A stretch of DNA of 47,190 nt from Candidatus Oleihabitans oleiphilus (lineage in GTDB: Bacteria > Atribacterota > Phoenicimicrobiia > Phoenicimicrobiales > Stramentimicrobiaceae). Location of the stretch: NCBI GenBank assembly GCA_018054125.1, contig JAGPKD010000002.1, positions 14,186 to 61,375 of the forward strand. Direction: 5' to 3'. The notes beneath the pieces were generated by a model. The model did not search any database. It had not been told where the DNA came from and saw only the letters and a program-made list of their open reading frames with translations. A program made the translations under genes and the position numbers. Shown in pieces: positions 6,160 to 17,167 of this stretch. Each line of letters starts with the position of its first letter. The stretch's first letter is position 1.

Positions 6160-7524
6160 TCAAGGACTATTTTGAATTTTATTAATCAAGCGGTCAAGGT
6201 GATATTTTAGTTTTTTATCTGTTTTTAATTGTTCTTTAATTTTATTACAGGAATGAATAACTGTAGTATGATCTTTTCCTCCAAAAAAATCACCGATCAT
6301 GGGAAGGGAATAGTCTGTTAATTCCCTGGAAAGAAACATAGCAATATGACGAGCTGTTACTATATTTTTAGTCCTTTTTTTAGATAATAGGATACCCGGC
6401 TTTAAATTAAAGTATTCCGCTGTGTGTTTTTGAATTAATTGAATGGATATTTCTTTTTCTTCAATAGGAATAAAATCTTTTAAGATTTGTTTAGCTAAAG
6501 TAATATCCACTTCTCTTTGGTTCGTTAAAGTGATATAAGCGTTTAACTTATTTAAGGCCCCTTCTAATTGGCGAATATTAGAAGGTATTTTATTGGCAAT
6601 GTAGTGAATAATTTCATCTGATAATTCTAATTGATAATTTTCTGCTTTTTTTTGTAAGATGGCAATTCTAGTCTCTAAATCAGGCGGTTGAATATCAGTA
6701 ATAAGTCCCCATTCAAATCTGGAAATTAAACGGTTTTCTAAATTAGTAATTTCCTTAGGGGGACGATCAGAAGTAATAACAATCTGTTTACTGGCATTAT
6801 AGAGAGAGTTGAATGTATGAAAAAATTCTTCCTGTGTTCTTTCTTTGCCAGCCAAAAACTGGATATCATCTATCAATAAGATATCAAAATTACGATATTT
6901 TTCCCGAAAAATTTCAGTTGTATCATCCTTGATGGCATTAATTAATTCATTGGTGAATTTTTCAGAAGAAATATAGGCAATATTAGTAGAGTGAGTAGAA
7001 TTTTTATTAATAATATAATTTCCAATACCGTGCATCAAGTGTGTTTTCCCCAGGCCAACTCCTCCATAAACAAAGAGAGGGTTGTAAGATTTTGCTGGAG
7101 ATTGAGCTACAGCAAGGCAGGCTGCATGAGCAAAACGATTACTATCTCCTACCACAAAATTAGAAAAAGTATATTTGGAATTTAAAAAAGTCTTATCGTA
7201 TCTTTTTTGAAAAATATCTTGATTTACTCTTTCTTTTTTTTCTTTAGAGGGATTTTGATTTTGAGTTGCATTAATCTCAAATTTAATTAAAATATTATCA
7301 TCAAAGCCAAACTGTTCCATAATAATCTTCTTAAGAAACTGATAGTGGTTTTTTTCCAGCCAATTTTTACAAAAGATATTGGGTACTGCCAAAATTAATT
7401 CATTGTTTTTGAAATCAATATATTGAATTTGAGAAAACCAGGTATTATAAATCTGGGGACTTAGTTTCTCTTGAATAATTTTAAGAACATTTTCCCATTC
7501 TTGGTTAAGTTGATAATAGCTCAT
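6160..7524 (-). CDS. dnaA: Chromosomal replication initiator DnaA
   Basis: A 454-residue initiator. Domain I (residues 1-90, MSYYQLNQEWENVLKIIQEK start) is followed by a short linker. The AAA+ domain III has KYTFSNFVVGDSNRFAHAA, Walker A GGVGLGKTHL, Walker B ILLIDDIQFL, and the sensor region ENRLISRFEWGL. The C-terminal domain IV carries the DnaA-box-recognition signature GGKDHTTVIHSCNKI. Length and order are normal. It is the first gene of the leftward replication operon. The minus-strand sequence before the ATG (AAGGAAAATT) is only a weak ribosome binding site. It is transcribed away from rpmH, so the origin probably lies between them. Confidence 0.98.
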   Translation of the reverse strand: MSYYQLNQEWENVLKIIQEKLSPQIYNTWFSQIQYIDFKNNELILAVPNIFCKNWLEKNHYQFLKKIIMEQFGFDDNILIKFEINATQNQNPSKEKKERVNQDIFQKRYDKTFLNSKYTFSNFVVGDSNRFAHAACLAVAQSPAKSYNPLFVYGGVGLGKTHLMHGIGNYIINKNSTHSTNIAYISSEKFTNELINAIKDDTTEIFREKYRNFDILLIDDIQFLAGKERTQEEFFHTFNSLYNASKQIVITSDRPPKEITNLENRLISRFEWGLITDIQPPDLETRIAILQKKAENYQLELSDEIIHYIANKIPSNIRQLEGALNKLNAYITLTNQREVDITLAKQILKDFIPIEEKEISIQLIQKHTAEYFNLKPGILLSKKRTKNIVTARHIAMFLSRELTDYSLPMIGDFFGGKDHTTVIHSCNKIKEQLKTDKKLKYHLDRLINKIQNSP

Positions 7525-7574
7525 AATTTTCCTTATAAAATAGTTTTCAGTTAACAGTTCTTAGTTTTTAGACC

Positions 7575-7775
7575 AAAGATACAGGTATAATAGTATGAGA
7601 TTGCCACGCCTGCCCCTAAACTAATGTTTAGAGGCAGGCTCGCAATGACATTTTGCTTTGGTAGTTTATCTTATAGTATCAAAATTGCTTGGCAATTACG
7701 ATATTTAAGGGGGAGAATTCCCCTCTTGAGAGAGGTGTCCCGAAGGGACGGGGTGTTCCCCTTGAGAATCCCTTT
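7575..7775. repeat. about 200-bp intergenic repeat, copy 1 (partner at 21755-21957)
   Basis: This stretch runs from AAAGATACAGGTATAATAG through GAGATTGCCACGCCTGCC, a hairpin with CTAAAC/GTTTAG arms, CTCGCAATGACATTTT, GGTAGTTTAT, and ends with CGAAGGGACGGGGTGTT. The same order recurs at 21755-21957 with scattered changes. Both copies keep the central palindrome although its arms differ. The outer TTGC/GCAATGACA parts are shared with the repeats at 11059, 15126, 21590 and 31016. Confidence 0.8.
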
Positions 7776-7874
7776 ATTTTCATCTCAATCTTATCATTCT
7801 TACTAAGCAAAGAAAATATATTTCTTTTAACATCTATCTTGTCTTTCTAAATTTTTTATAACAAAACAATTCCT

Positions 7875-7919
7875 TATCTTGAGGTATCAGAATTATTGAA
7901 ATTCCTATACCTCAAGATA
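7875..7919. repeat. hairpin A, extended form 1
   Basis: TATCTTGAGGTAT pairs with ATACCTCAAGATA around an AT-rich centre. Two related copies at 8001-8046 and 21507-21552 have changed the AGG segment to TAG and CAG, with matching changes in the opposite arm. Confidence 0.85.
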
Positions 7920-8056
7920 TTCAAGGGGAATCCTTCCCCTTGAGATCCCCTGGATTAAAAGCAAAATATATTGTTAATTATTTAGTAATAATATTTATAT
8001 TATCTTGTAGTATCGAAATTTTTTGAAATTCCGATACTACAAGATAATCAGGGGAC
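7914..8056. repeat. about 140-bp repeat block, copy 1 (partner near 21418-21562)
   Basis: Begins with AAGATATTCAAGGGGAATCC, holds hairpin B at 7922-7942 and GGATTAAAAGCAAAATATAT, and ends with hairpin A at 8001-8046 followed by AATCA. The block is nearly identical to one near 21418-21562. Between the two loci this block and the 200-bp element occur in swapped order. Confidence 0.85.
8001..8046. repeat. hairpin A, extended form 2
   Basis: A 46-base palindrome: TATCTTGTAGTATCG pairs with CGATACTACAAGATA, with inner AAATT/AATT(C) pairs and a short T loop. It lacks a clear T tail, so it may be structural rather than a terminator. Confidence 0.85.
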
Positions 8057-8141
8057 TTCGCTCCCTGAAACTCCCTTAAATTAACACTTAGGCAATAAAG
8101 GTAATATTTTATAATTGATTAAAATAAAAAAGATATTAACA

Positions 8142-8165
8142 TTATTAACAATTAATTGTGGAAAA
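8142..8165. promoter_or_regulatory. DnaA-box-like pair 1 (TTATTAACA ... TGTGGAAAA)
   Basis: A near-consensus forward box (8142-8150) and a reverse TTTTCCACA-type box (8157-8165) face each other. The same arrangement recurs at 8285-8304 with a shorter spacer. Confidence 0.45.
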
Positions 8166-8284
8166 CAGTCTATATGCTATTTTGTCAATATTGAATATGC
8201 TTTTGAAACAATATTTATCTAATTTAAAAAATATTAAATTTAAAGTATTGAATTATAATAAAGGGTTTTCATTTAATTCACAGC

Positions 8285-8304
8285 TTATTAACAATTGTGG
8301 AAAA
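8285..8304. promoter_or_regulatory. DnaA-box-like pair 2 (TTATTAACA ... TGTGGAAAA)
   Basis: Second copy of the facing pair, 143 bases after the first, preceded by the near-consensus TAATTCACA at 8274-8282. Confidence 0.45.
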
Positions 8305-8533
8305 AAGAAATTAAAGAGAAATTGGGACCCATTAGTATATAGCATAATTATATAAACCATTCCAAGGAAGTTTTTTAGTATGGATATAGACCTTTTGTCC
8401 AAATAATAAGCTAATGCACCTAATTTTTCAAGAGGCTTAAACCAATATTTTTTCGTAGCCAATTTATAGATTCACTAAAACTAAAAAAGGTTACTTGCCA
8501 TAGCAGTAAAAATAGGTTAGACTATTACATTAT

Positions 8534-8563
8534 TTGACATATTAATAATATAATAGTTATAAT
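8534..8563 (+). promoter_or_regulatory. sigma-70-type promoter for rpmH
   Basis: TTGACA (8534-8539) and TATAAT (8558-8563), both perfect, are separated by 18 bases. Transcription would start near 8570 and give a leader of about 70 bases before rpmH. Confidence 0.75.
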
Positions 8564-8640
8564 TTAAAATCGTAATTATTTTTTAGTATCTTAATTTTCA
8601 TAAAATTTCGATATAATTGGGCAAAGGAGAATAAGCATAC

Positions 8641-9404: not shown

Positions 9405-9610
9405 TAGTATCGGAATTTCAATAATTCCGATACCTAAATATAAAGGATTGATTTGTTATAAAAAATTTAGCAAAACAAGATATGCATTTCTTGAAAAGGA
9501 ATTTTTCTTTATTTTTTAACTGAAATTTACACTATATACTAAATTACTAGATACTCAATACTAATAATTCAGAGGTTCTCAAGGGGAAGGATTCCCCTTG
9601 AATATCTTGT
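9405..9610 (+). repeat. about 200-bp repeat, plus-orientation copy (hairpin A to hairpin B)
   Basis: Begins with hairpin A (GTATCGGAATT/AATTCCGATAC, 9407-9433), continues through AAAGGATTGATTTGTTATAA, ACAAGATATGCATTTC, TTTTTCTTTATTTTTTAACT and ATACTAGATACTCAATACT-like blocks, and ends in hairpin B plus ATCTTGTT. The same order is at 10861-11058 and, inverted, at 31225-31413; shorter parts recur at 11330-11425 and 27350-27505. Confidence 0.85.
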
Positions 9611-9775
9611 TGGTAAAACAAGATAGATTTTCTTGGAATTGTATTTTCTTTCAGGGGATCTCAAGGGGAAGGATTCCCCTTGAATATCTTGTTGGTAAAA
9701 CAAGATAGATTTTCTTGGAATTGTATTTTCTTTCAGGGGATCTCAAGGGGAAGGATTCCCCTTGAATATCTCTGT
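9577..9775 (+). repeat. 82-bp tandem repeat, about 2.4 copies
   Basis: Hairpin B (CAAGGGGAAG centred on GGA) starts at 9580, 9662 and 9744, exactly 82 bases apart. Each unit continues GAATATCTTGTTGGTAAAAC, AAGATAGATTTTCTTGG, AATTGTATTTTCTTTCAGGG. The first two units are essentially identical, indicating recent duplication. The third is truncated just before yidC. Confidence 0.92.
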
Positions 9776-12223: not shown

Positions 12224-13657
12224 ATGAAATGCTATCAATTAAAAGAGAATAATAGAGAAGATGATACTATTGTTGCTATTTCCACACCGCCAGGCATGGG
12301 CGGTATTAGTATTGTACGATTGAGTGGTCCCCAATCTATTGAAATTGCCAGTAAAATATTTCTTTATAAAGGAAAGGCAAAAAAGAACCCAAACGAATAT
12401 CGTTCCCATTGTCTTTATTATGGAACAATTGTACAACCATGGGATGATAGGGTAGTAGATGAAGTATTATTGACTATTATGCGAAAACCAAAAACATATA
12501 CTAGAGAGGATGTAGTGGAAATCAATTGTCACGGGGGATTTTTGGTGGTAAATAAAGTTTTGGAGATCGCATGTAAACTGGGAGCAAGGATTGCCGAGCC
12601 TGGAGAATTTACTAAATTAGCATTTTTAAATGGCAGGATAGATTTGAGTCAGGCAGAGGCTGTTATTGATATTATTAAGTCAAGCAACGAAAAAAGTTTG
12701 CAATCTTCTCTTTATCAACTTTCTGGTGGTCTCAAAGAAAAGATAAATCATTTAAAAAATAAGATAGTTGATTTAAACGTAAGAATTGAAGCCCCTCTGG
12801 ATTTTCCGGATCAGGGTATTGCTGAGATTAAGAAAGAAGAGATTAAAAAAATTATAAATGAATGCTCAAGTGAAGTAAATAAATTATTAGATACAGTGCA
12901 ATATGGTCAGATAATTAAAGAAGGGATTAATGCCATAATTCTGGGGAAAACTAATGTTGGTAAATCGAGTCTCTTTAATCTATTATTAAAGAGAAACAGA
13001 TCTATTGTCACCTCTTTACCAGGAACTACTAGGGATTTAATTGAAGAGTCTATTAATATTAATGGTATTACCTTTCATCTGATTGATACTGCAGGAATGA
13101 AAATCCCAGAAAATATAGTTGAGCAAATTAGCCTGAAGAGAGTAAGGGAATACATGGAATTTGCACAATTGTTTATAGTAATGTTTGATAATAGCCGTCC
13201 CATAGATTCTGATGATATAAAACTGATGAAAAAAATAGAAAGTTACCATAATCGTAATATAAATATAATTTTGGTAATAAATAAAATAGATTTACCACCT
13301 GGGATGGATATATCAGAATTGCGCTCTAGATTTAGCCAGAATGATTTTGTCACTATGTCTATCAAGAAAAAGATTGGCATCGATACTCTGTTAGAAAAGA
13401 TGACTAATCTGATTCTCTCTGATATAAATATTCCGGATGAGGAGCTTATTATCAATAATAAAAGACATCTGAATTGTTTACTCCAAGCAAAAAATTGTTT
13501 AAATAAGCTTAGAAGCAGTTTAGAAGAGGGGATACCGCTTGATTTCGTAGCAATGGATTTAAAATATATTGCTAATCAACTAGCAAATATTACTGGAGAA
13601 TCTTGCGATGAAGAGATTATCAGTGGTATATTTTCGAAGTTCTGTATCGGTAAATAA
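12224..13657 (+). CDS. mnmE: tRNA modification GTPase MnmE
   Basis: A 477-residue GTPase that, with MnmG, installs cmnm5 or nm5 groups on wobble uridine of certain tRNAs. The folate-binding N-terminal domain has IVAISTPPGMGGISIVRLSG. The helical domain follows. The G domain (about residues 215-380) has ILGKTNVGKSSLFN (G1), the G2 threonine region SLPGTTRDLIEE, DTAGM (G3) and NKID (G4). The C-terminal CIGK motif is intact. AAAAAGGAATCCAG precedes the ATG. Its obligate partner mnmG is not next to it, unlike most genomes with this gene order. Confidence 0.97.
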   Translation: MKCYQLKENNREDDTIVAISTPPGMGGISIVRLSGPQSIEIASKIFLYKGKAKKNPNEYRSHCLYYGTIVQPWDDRVVDEVLLTIMRKPKTYTREDVVEINCHGGFLVVNKVLEIACKLGARIAEPGEFTKLAFLNGRIDLSQAEAVIDIIKSSNEKSLQSSLYQLSGGLKEKINHLKNKIVDLNVRIEAPLDFPDQGIAEIKKEEIKKIINECSSEVNKLLDTVQYGQIIKEGINAIILGKTNVGKSSLFNLLLKRNRSIVTSLPGTTRDLIEESININGITFHLIDTAGMKIPENIVEQISLKRVREYMEFAQLFIVMFDNSRPIDSDDIKLMKKIESYHNRNINIILVINKIDLPPGMDISELRSRFSQNDFVTMSIKKKIGIDTLLEKMTNLILSDINIPDEELIINNKRHLNCLLQAKNCLNKLRSSLEEGIPLDFVAMDLKYIANQLANITGESCDEEIISGIFSKFCIGK

Positions 13658-13817
13658 AAAACTAATTATTAGTTGAAGGTTTCTAGTTGATATTTATGTA
13701 GCAGAATATCAAAAAAATTCTTTTTTAAATAAGAACGATATATATTAAGATAGATTTTAAGGTAAACTATAATTTACATAATTATTATAACTTGAGATAA
13801 AAATAGGATTTTATTAT

Positions 13818-13845
13818 CAACAATGTTCCACGTGGAACATTGTTG
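13818..13845. promoter_or_regulatory. parS centromere site with extended 28-bp palindrome
   Basis: The core TGTTCCACGTGGAACA (13824-13839) matches the conserved ParB-binding parS palindrome. It is extended on both sides by CAACAA and TTGTTG into a perfect 28-bp palindrome. ParB loads here as a CTP-dependent clamp. Confidence 0.92.
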
Positions 13846-13865
13846 AGTTAAAAGCTGGAGAAGCA

Positions 13866-13927
13866 GGTAAAGTATTCTGCCAGAATTTATGAGAGGTATA
13901 AATTATATATAAATCAAATACTTTACC
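13866..13927. repeat. long inverted repeat next to parS
   Basis: GGTAAAGTATT (13866-13876) and AATACTTTACC (13917-13927) are perfect 11-bp arms around a 40-base AT-rich centre. A related TTACTTTACC follows at about 14013-14022. Confidence 0.6.
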
Positions 13928-13977
13928 AGAAAAACAATAACCAGGAAAATCAGGGAGAAATTACTGTTATTTTTCTT

Positions 13978-13997
13978 TGTGAATAAACTGTGGAAAA
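13978..13997 (-). promoter_or_regulatory. DnaA-box doublet 1
   Basis: TGTGAATAA (exact DnaA box in reverse) and TGTGGAAAA lie in the same orientation with starts 11 bases apart, about one helical turn. The 20-base arrangement recurs at 14183-14202. Confidence 0.6.
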
Positions 13998-14182
13998 ATA
14001 GAATCATATTATTTACTTTACCAATAAAGGCCAATGACAGAAATAATAACAATGCTAATTAAGGAAGAAATAGGGAATTACTATTTATAAAAGCCTATTA
14101 TTCTTTATGTTTTCTTTAAAGGCAAGGGTAGGCAATTTCCCTGGTCTTTTTTCAATGCAGTCAAAATGGATAAAAAAGAGGT

Positions 14183-14202
14183 TGTGAAAAAACTGTGGAA
14201 AA
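14183..14202 (-). promoter_or_regulatory. DnaA-box doublet 2, overlapping the rsmG start
   Basis: TGTGAAAAA and TGTGGAAAA, again 11 bases apart; only one base differs from doublet 1 across 20 positions. The GTG start codon of rsmG (14195) lies inside the second box, so DnaA binding could block rsmG expression. Confidence 0.5.
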
Positions 14203-14974
14203 AGATAAAATATCTTTTCATATGGAAAGTGACATCCAACAACATATAGCCATAGGTTCTCTTGCTTTAGGATTAAATTTAACCAAAGACAATATTGAAA
14301 AATTTATAATTTATTTAAAAATGATTAATTCTTATCAGAACAGGATAAATATAACCTCCATAACAGAACCCTACGATATTATTAGCAAACATTTTTTGGA
14401 TTCACTCTCTTCGCTAAAACTTATTAACCAGGAGTTGTTAAATTATAACCAGGAGAAAAGAAAAAAAATAATTGATGTCGGCAGTGGTGCAGGGTTTCCC
14501 GGATTGCCTCTTAAAATTGTTTTACCTCAAGTAAGCATGTTTTTATTAGAAGCCAGAGGGAACAGGGTAATGTTTTTGAATGATGTTGTCAATAGCTTAG
14601 AGTTAAAGGATACCAAAATAATTAAAGATAGAGCAGAAAATATAGGGAAGATGGCAGAGTATCGGGAAAAATTTCATATTGTTTTATCAAGAGCAGTTGC
14701 CCCTCTTGCTGTTTTATGTGAATATTGCCTTCCTTTATGTAAGGTTAAAGGTGCCATGATTGCCTTTAAAGGTAGTTCCTATTGTCAGGAATTATCGAGT
14801 AATAATAAAGTAATTGAAAAATTGGGAGGCTCATTAGAAAGCGTAAACATGATAAAAATTCCTTATTCTAATCATGTTCGTTACATTATAGTTATCCGCA
14901 AAATAAGTTCAACTCCAGAAAATTATCCTCGAAAAAATGGAATTCCTCAGAAAAGACCTTTGTATTTTGCGTAA
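14195..14974 (+). CDS. rsmG: 16S rRNA m7G527 methyltransferase RsmG
   Basis: A 259-residue Rossmann methyltransferase using S-adenosylmethionine. Key segments are RINITSITEPYDIISKHFLDSL-like substrate region, the SAM-binding IIDVGSGAGFPGLPLKI (about residues 93-109), FLLEARGNRVMFL, and LSRAVAPLAVLCEY. The C-terminal PRKNGIPQKRPL tail is typical of Firmicutes-type RsmG. The GTG at 14195 has AAGAGG about 13 bases upstream; an in-frame ATG at 14222 lacks a ribosome binding site, so I chose the GTG. It follows the parS/DnaA-box spacer and precedes a repeat-rich gap and parA. Confidence 0.94.
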   Translation: MEKDKISFHMESDIQQHIAIGSLALGLNLTKDNIEKFIIYLKMINSYQNRINITSITEPYDIISKHFLDSLSSLKLINQELLNYNQEKRKKIIDVGSGAGFPGLPLKIVLPQVSMFLLEARGNRVMFLNDVVNSLELKDTKIIKDRAENIGKMAEYREKFHIVLSRAVAPLAVLCEYCLPLCKVKGAMIAFKGSSYCQELSSNNKVIEKLGGSLESVNMIKIPYSNHVRYIIVIRKISSTPENYPRKNGIPQKRPLYFA

Positions 14975-15570: not shown

Positions 15571-16332
15571 ATGAATAAAATAATAGCTATTAGTAATCAA
15601 AAAGGGGGTGTAGGAAAGACAACCACTGCAATTAATTTAAGTGCTTTTTTAGCAATTGAGAAGAAAAAAGTCTTATTGGTCGATATTGATCCTCAGGGGA
15701 ATGCCAGCAGTGGAATAGGTATAGAACGTTCTAAAATAGAAAAAAATATATATGATTGCCTTATTAACCAGACTCCTGTGACGGAAGTTCTTGTTTCTAG
15801 CCAGATTGAAAATTTAGATGTACTGCCTTCTACCTTACAGTTAGCAGGAGCAGAAATAGAATTGGTAAATTACATTTCTCGGGAAAATCGCTTAAAACAG
15901 CTTATCCGCCCTATAAAAGAAAAGTATGATTATATCATTGTTGATACCCCTCCTTCCTTAGGATTACTTACTTTAAATGCTCTGAATGCTGCTGATTCGG
16001 TTATAATTCCAGTACAATGTGAATATTATGCTCTGGAAGGGATTGGTCAATTATTAAATACCATTACCCTGGTAAAAGAAAATTTAAATCCCAATCTATC
16101 GATCGAAGGAATTTTATTAACTATGTATGATCAGAGAAATAATTTATCGAAAGAAGTAGCTGAAGAGATTGATAGACATTTTCACGGTAGTATTTTTCAG
16201 TCCATTATTCCTCGCAATGTTCGTTTAAGTGAGGCACCCAGTTATGGTCAACCGATTGTTCTCTATGAAGCAAAATCTAGAGGTTCCCAGGCTTATCATA
16301 AGTTAGCACTGGAGGTGATTGCTCATGGCTAA
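15571..16332 (+). CDS. parA: ParA/Soj chromosome partitioning ATPase
   Basis: A 253-residue deviant-Walker ATPase that drives origin segregation with ParB. Walker A is KGGVGKTTTAINL (about residues 10-22) with the signature first lysine; Walker A' is VDIDPQGNASSGIG; Walker B is YIIVDTPPSLG. Length is typical of the short chromosomal form (Soj) that lacks an N-terminal HTH. AAAAGGATC precedes the ATG. It overlaps parB by 8 bp. Confidence 0.97.
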   Translation: MNKIIAISNQKGGVGKTTTAINLSAFLAIEKKKVLLVDIDPQGNASSGIGIERSKIEKNIYDCLINQTPVTEVLVSSQIENLDVLPSTLQLAGAEIELVNYISRENRLKQLIRPIKEKYDYIIVDTPPSLGLLTLNALNAADSVIIPVQCEYYALEGIGQLLNTITLVKENLNPNLSIEGILLTMYDQRNNLSKEVAEEIDRHFHGSIFQSIIPRNVRLSEAPSYGQPIVLYEAKSRGSQAYHKLALEVIAHG

Positions 16333-17167
16333 AAAAGGCTTAGGCAAAGGTCTAGAATCAATTATACCTATTTCTAATATTAAAGATCGGTCTTATGTAA
16401 TGGAAATAGATGTGGATCAATTGACTCCTAATCTCTATCAACCAAGACAAGATTTTGACCAGGAGAAATTGGATGAATTAAAAGAATCAATCAAAGCCCA
16501 TGGTATTATTCAACCAATTATTGTTCGAGAATCATCCCAGGGCTATGAAATTGTAGCCGGAGAAAGAAGGTTTAAGGCAGCCAGAGAACTGGGAATAAAA
16601 AAAATTCCTGTTATTATCAAACAATTCAACAATCTTAAGACTTTTGAAGTGTCTTTGGTAGAAAACTTGCAAAGAGATGACCTTAATCCTATTGAACAAG
16701 CGTTTGCCTTTAAAAGATTGGTTGATGAATTTAGCCTTACTCACCAGGAGTTAGCTGAAATTACTGGAAAGAGTAGAACTTTTATAAGTAATACTATTCG
16801 ATTACTTAATTTAGATGAGTGGGTTAGAGAAAGAGTTGCTTCAGGGAAAATAAGTTTTGGCCACGCTAAAGTTTTATTGAGTTTGGATGATAAACAGATG
16901 CAGCAAGAATTCGGACAAAAAATCATCGAGCATGATTTATCGGTAAGGGATTTAGAACTAATAGTCGAGCGATGGAAAAAAAGAAAAGAAAAAGATTCAT
17001 TAACTAAGAAACGGAACGTGCAATATTTTCCAGAGCTTGAGAAAAAACTTATGGCTAAATTTGGAACTAAAGTAAATATTAAATTCAGTGGGAAAAGAGG
17101 GAAGCTGGTTATTGAATTTTATAGTAATGAGGATTTAAATAGGATTGCTAACCTTTTATTAGATTAA
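16325..17167 (+). CDS. parB: ParB/Spo0J chromosome partitioning protein
   Basis: A 280-residue CTP-dependent DNA clamp. It starts MAKKGLGKGLESIIP (the ParA-stimulating peptide). The CTPase domain carries QPIIVRESSQGYEIVAGERR with the GERRFKAA box and ENLQRDDLNPIEQA. The central HTH (LAEITGKSRTFISNTIRLL) recognises parS. The C-terminal dimerisation region follows. The ATG at 16325 lies inside the parA stop region, so translation is coupled. Two parS sites are within 3 kb. Confidence 0.97.
   Translation: MAKKGLGKGLESIIPISNIKDRSYVMEIDVDQLTPNLYQPRQDFDQEKLDELKESIKAHGIIQPIIVRESSQGYEIVAGERRFKAARELGIKKIPVIIKQFNNLKTFEVSLVENLQRDDLNPIEQAFAFKRLVDEFSLTHQELAEITGKSRTFISNTIRLLNLDEWVRERVASGKISFGHAKVLLSLDDKQMQQEFGQKIIEHDLSVRDLELIVERWKKRKEKDSLTKKRNVQYFPELEKKLMAKFGTKVNIKFSGKRGKLVIEFYSNEDLNRIANLLLD

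Follow-up and report, generated by a model that had tools for sequence, protein, structure and literature searches.

DnaA-binding sites outside oriC are known mainly from model organisms, and the Atribacteria phylum is mostly uncultured.

According to PMC4447404 and PMC8203912, the Bacillus subtilis DnaA protein occupies a site between jag and trmE (mnmE) and acts as a repressor of the trmE-noc operon, which includes rsmG; Table 1 of PMC4447404 gives about four boxes for this jag-trmE cluster. Passages in PMC5295017, PMC13220808 and PMC5742627 treat oriC-proximal clusters of the same species as titration sites (Okumura 2012), the deletion of six of which leads to early initiation, and say of comparable clusters, both there and in Streptomyces, that they restrain initiation. 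At datA, boxes are conserved and spacers variable among E. coli strains (PMC4585315), DnaA is described as a head-to-tail oligomer (PMC5742627), and both sources report a requirement for IHF and for a defined spacing between boxes and IHF site. In the DARS core, box I runs opposite to boxes II and III (PMC5742627). We found no description of an rsmG-linked doublet pair in the open-licence literature searched on Atribacterota DnaA boxes and on DnaA with gidB/rsmG.

Results

The window, by which we mean the whole stretch of 47,190 nucleotides that was analysed, comes from a Candidatus Atribacteria MAG (1.67 Mb, 88% complete). The closest named relative of its RsmG belongs to Candidatus Atribacteria UBA6794 (93%), and a scan of named-relative contigs returned three loci, one of them a weak match at 25%. 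An earlier note on this DNA had described a 20-base arrangement that occurs twice with one difference, each copy holding two DnaA boxes in phase at 11 bases, and the sequence agrees. Doublet 1 (TGTGAATAAACTGTGGAAAA, 13978-13997) is made up of predicted boxes TGTGAATAA (13978-13986) and TGTGGAAAA (13989-13997), and doublet 2 (TGTGAAAAAACTGTGGAAAA, 14183-14202) of predicted boxes TGTGAAAAA (14183-14191) and TGTGGAAAA (14194-14202). The doublets lie 205 bp apart, and all four boxes are on the + strand. The similarity between the doublets extends over 27 bp at 89% identity and not beyond; the spacer that separates them (13998-14182) is AT-rich (71% AT) and unconserved in sequence. The boxes match the DnaA consensus, and the genome encodes a canonical DnaA (6160-7524, - strand; Bac_DnaA_C, 2e-29), the presumed binder.

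The pair sits between mnmE (12224-13657, + strand) and rsmG (GidB, PF02527, 1.2e-47; 14195-14974, + strand), with parA/soj (15571-16332, + strand) and parB/spo0J (16319-17167, + strand) downstream. Doublet 1 starts 139 bp past the end of a perfect parS (TGTTCCACGTGGAACA, 13824-13839), itself the centre of a 30-bp perfect palindrome (13817-13846). As previously claimed, the second doublet covers the GTG of rsmG: this codon (14195-14197), the inferred start and the one that opens the longest ORF, falls within the last box, and an ATG at 14222 provides an alternative start. The claim that the site lies about 6 kb from the presumed origin and beside parS is likewise borne out, with 5.3-6.5 kb separating the doublets from the dnaA-rpmH region (7525-8640), the probable oriC, on the dnaA side to the left. 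This region carries two single TGTGGAAAA boxes at 8157 and 8296 (8157-8304, + strand), 139 bp apart, and the GC skew of the window changes sign near 6-8 kb.

Three further observations concern the neighbourhood. Upstream of dnaA, 14 of 15 f1 and f2 loci (we denote families by f numbers) have two boxes of the same orientation 137-140 bp apart; this tightly spaced pair is probably an oriC feature, distinct from the doublets at rsmG. The gene mnmG is absent between mnmE and rsmG (13658-14194), and a strong PF01134 match occurs on contig C102 of the same genome. Intergenic DNA next to the origin (7690-7930 and 9590-9770) holds CAAGGGGAAGGATTCCCCTTGAATATC-type repeats, similar letters being found past rsmG in one relative (G001). 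A search against Rfam returned no family above threshold, its two matches (E 0.56 and 0.6) scoring far below the gathering score.

How specific is the arrangement? Across the 1.67-Mb assembly, only the two doublets match TGTGRAWAANNTGTGGAWAA with at most one mismatch; a reversed control doublet has no match in the same assembly at the same tolerance. When three mismatches are allowed, the window contains four matches where 1.0 is expected, a count reached in one of 100 shuffles. In 51 genomes (50 in-phylum and one outside), a relaxed doublet occurs 97 times, compared with 11 times for the reversed control. These near-doublets fall at rsmG (59, in 37 genomes), upstream of dnaA (18, in 17 genomes) or elsewhere (20), so that doublets concentrate mainly at two places, the rsmG element and the dnaA region. 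Six of the 20 found elsewhere are the pairs of G003, G009 and G049, the last at a contig end beside mnmE. Five of the 51 genomes (G008, G023, G034, G045 and the outside genome G050) lack the relaxed doublet, and these five have no rsmG match either.

We searched sixty relatives for rsmG and examined 39 in-phylum loci (the window's own included) and 10 out-of-phylum loci. Contig ends truncate three in-phylum loci (G011, G038 and G048), leaving 36 with enough upstream sequence. The earlier note had treated absence of the doublets from sister genomes as fatal to its reading; instead, two same-strand DnaA sites lie upstream of rsmG at all 36 scorable in-phylum loci and at none of the 10 outside, with one site each at the contig-edge loci of G011 and G048. 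Under a stricter rule that counts doublets, 30 of the 39 in-phylum loci have two, against 0/10 outside, where one genome has a single doublet. One doublet was counted at eight of the 39, which comprise contig-edge cases and loci of f6, a family that often has a lone consensus box at one of the sites (of its seven scorable genomes, five have a single consensus box as the upstream site and two a weakly paired one). Only G038, with 27 bp of upstream sequence, has none. No doublet on the reverse strand was found at the 39 in-phylum loci, and the TGTTGATAA boxes grouped in the out-of-phylum genome G056 are unrelated.

Conservation is confined to the boxes. Within family groups, doublets are 75-94% identical and spacers 63-74%, compared with 62-65% for shuffled spacers; f2 spacers exceed the shuffled level (74% versus 65%), and those of the other families are at or near it. 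Start-to-start distances are 116-245 bp in most relatives and 400 and 411 bp in two f2 genomes. We considered a fixed helical phasing between doublets and discarded it, no common phase being apparent by eye across 116-411 bp. A parS lies within 1.2 kb of the doublets in 4/6 f1 genomes, in most f2, in f4 and in most or all f6 genomes with enough sequence, but in no f5 genome, so that parS is not an obligate partner. One genome of another family (G022:C7, locus L106) holds a second rsmG fragment 97% identical to that of the window, probably on a misbinned contig.

Could the similarity have arisen by chance, or from a constraint on the start region of rsmG, where a ribosome site and the coding of an MDNLW-type N-terminus might preserve these letters? 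Doublet 2 does encode VDNLWK in some f5 genomes. However, doublet 1 is non-coding yet equally conserved, doublet 2 is itself non-coding in f2 and in G003 and G009, and two doublets never arise when the sequence upstream of rsmG is simulated with a first-order Markov model (0/200 copies for each of 49 genomes). We therefore give this explanation almost no weight.

The most informative genomes are two members of family f1, G003 and G009, where doublet pairs are present and rsmG has no match. At the locus, tblastn found no rsmG between mnmE and parA; genome-wide, the best PF02527 score is 20.8 bits in G003 (cut-off 27), and G009 returned nothing. The assemblies are 98% complete (G003) and 89% complete with 7% contamination (G009). 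Of rsmG (L168 of G003, around 6492-6840, and L169 of G009), only the final codons and a conserved element at its 3' end are left. This element, AAAAGACCTTTG...GATAATAT, looks like a parAB promoter.

Both doublets are intact in these genomes, 208 bp apart in G003 and 207 bp in G009. Imagine that the boxes were maintained for rsmG only: they should then have followed the gene into decay. This is not observed in either genome. Between the two, the doublets are 90% identical and the spacer 55% (65% when shuffled), while their DnaA proteins, which form one group (support 0.998) in a tree of eight proteins, are only 72% identical. This argues that the doublets were retained by selection without rsmG, and that switching rsmG is not their sole function. 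Because parA lies directly downstream of the doublets in G003 and G009, a role in par regulation is possible there.

These genomes bear directly on the earlier suggestion of a direct DnaA-controlled switch for rsmG. One may picture a DnaA operator acting on the downstream gene, rsmG in most genomes and parAB where rsmG was lost, with DnaA at doublet 2 blocking the start region and doublet 1 assisting, possibly by looping. Outside f2, doublet 2 contains a start codon in frame with rsmG in all 25 genomes (GTG, once ATG); for 22 of these no earlier in-frame start exists. Where the segment is locally inverted relative to mnmE, the doublets follow rsmG and keep their orientation toward it, and there is a precedent in the repression of trmE-noc by DnaA in B. 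subtilis, as reported in PMC4447404 and PMC8203912. Yet because the doublet offers GTG in two of its three frames, the in-frame start is suggestive but weak evidence of start usage. In f2, moreover, the RsmG alignment begins 77-563 bp downstream of doublet 2, which contains an in-frame start in only 1/13 genomes. Nor did we find a consistent promoter between the doublets in the window and the 36 genomes scanned: best matches were at shuffle level, with p <0.05 in 2/36, both exceptions (G025 and G039) belonging to one genus. Given also that G003 and G009 retain the doublets after losing the gene, part of the idea survives, namely the start inside doublet 2 outside f2 and its B. subtilis precedent, but a switch for rsmG is not the whole function, and we regard the operator, the strongest of the rival accounts, as unlikely to be the correct one.

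A second origin module had been suggested as well. Here, the test rests on two complete genomes of more distant relatives within the phylum, each a single contig (3.10 Mb for G032, 2.27 Mb for G025), in which dnaA and rsmG are 232 kb and 237 kb apart (7.5% and 10.5% of the chromosome). To take out coding bias, we computed skew at fourfold sites for each gene strand separately. Minus-strand genes of G032 have a skew of about 0.09 up to 840 kb and of 0.24-0.33 past it; in G025, skew moves from about -0.04 before to 0.18-0.29 after 2120 kb. In both genomes the step falls within about 10 kb of dnaA and no strand-resolved step is present at rsmG, which argues that the doublet site is not the main origin. 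In f1 and f2, dnaA and rsmG lie within about 8 kb of one another, and gene-specific skew biases are too large to tell the two loci apart.

An auxiliary or second origin, or even the true oriC, would be in keeping with box clusters that adjoin parS, with an AT-rich spacer, and with the position of the coding-strand bias pivot, which is at rsmG in G025 and within about 20 kb of it in G032. Across the stretches scanned (560 + 549 kb, covering the whole dnaA-rsmG interval), parS occurs only beside rsmG. Against this stand not only the skew steps but also the conserved boxes that the dnaA-rpmH region carries in its own right and, in f1, a spacer no richer in AT than its flanks. An origin at the doublets is thus highly unlikely, and the suggestion of a second origin module is not supported.

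The interval between the two pivots (840-1072 kb of G032:C1; 2122 kb to 91 kb of G025:C1) consists of about 235 kb of mostly head-on genes, and reciprocal best hits show that parts of the dnaA-rsmG interval are common to both genomes. We read the distance between dnaA/oriC and the par locus as an old separation, and the mismatch of pivots in two families is possibly a relic of a moved origin. One might go further and take the doublets themselves for a functionless relic of an ancestral oriC, given that in f4 and f6 the doublets share their position with parS and the coding-strand pivot, the skew origin being about 235 kb away. If the boxes had no function, however, we would not expect them to be some 90% identical beside a spacer that is saturated with change, even where rsmG is gone. 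This pattern argues for present selection on the boxes and makes a functionless relic very improbable.

Discussion

Having weighed these alternatives, we favour, at a probability of roughly one half, a control site near the origin that binds DnaA, is autonomous and portable, and would titrate or inactivate the protein; it may also influence transcription of rsmG or par on the side. Since the doublets stay even where rsmG is lost, their role probably lies in the control of chromosome copying rather than in rsmG alone. Judging from sequence comparison, titration is the best supported of the three proposals in the earlier note because the boxes persist without rsmG, stay origin-proximal and are separated by non-conserved spacers.

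Mechanistically, DnaA would bind both head-to-tail doublets, which are in direct orientation, cooperatively. The bound site may then withdraw or inactivate DnaA locally; it would be duplicated soon after initiation, and the two copies might damp re-initiation, by analogy with datA and with oriC-proximal DnaA-box clusters. Where the downstream doublet overlaps the rsmG translation start, as in most families, DnaA occupancy may lower rsmG transcription, either as a by-product or as a second function.

Several observations sit uneasily with pure titration. A sink needs neither doublets that track rsmG through an inversion nor an in-frame start in 25/25 non-f2 genomes; four boxes are few for a sink; and in G003 and G009 the site lies just upstream of the par promoter-like element, so that it may act as an operator there. 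The architecture is not uniform either, the upstream site of f6 often being a single box. A tentative elaboration, which we hold to be somewhat doubtful, is that the two-doublet module marks an ancestral origin and segregation centre: in two families, dnaA and the skew origin would have moved by about 235 kb while module, parS and coding-strand pivot stayed, so that initiation and segregation centres became separated and DnaA would act at both.

Three features make the locus interesting: its phylum-wide conservation, the test provided by rsmG loss, and a parS that lies apart from the skew origin. One site conserved throughout a phylum and kept after deletion of its host gene is strong comparative evidence of selection for its own sake, and the distance of about 235 kb between origin and parS in G032 and G025 makes these genomes a natural experiment on whether DnaA-control and segregation sites must accompany oriC.

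Among known systems, the element compares best with non-oriC DnaA-box clusters: its consensus-like boxes lie outside oriC and close to the origin (about 6 kb in the window), and in G032 and G025 the site is not the origin itself, the replication-strand skew pivot that marks oriC being absent from the doublets. It differs from DARS1 and DARS2, likewise non-coding DnaA-box elements, in that all its boxes run in the same direction, with no box I inverted relative to II and III. Like datA, it is origin-proximal, only its boxes are conserved, and all of them point one way, as in a head-to-tail complex; datA depends on IHF and a defined box-IHF spacing, and the spacer here varies in sequence and, by family, in length. 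The titration clusters of B. subtilis are also non-oriC boxes, but several are dispersed there where one locus besides dnaA dominates here, and the analogy with those clusters is itself debated, as PMC5295017 indicates. With the jag-trmE cluster of B. subtilis, for which direct repression is reported, the element shares about four non-oriC boxes in an origin-proximal mnm-rsmG-par/noc block. In B. subtilis, however, the site is upstream of trmE, whereas the Atribacteria site is upstream of rsmG, consists of a pair of doublets on one strand, extends over the rsmG start and is still there in genomes that have lost rsmG.
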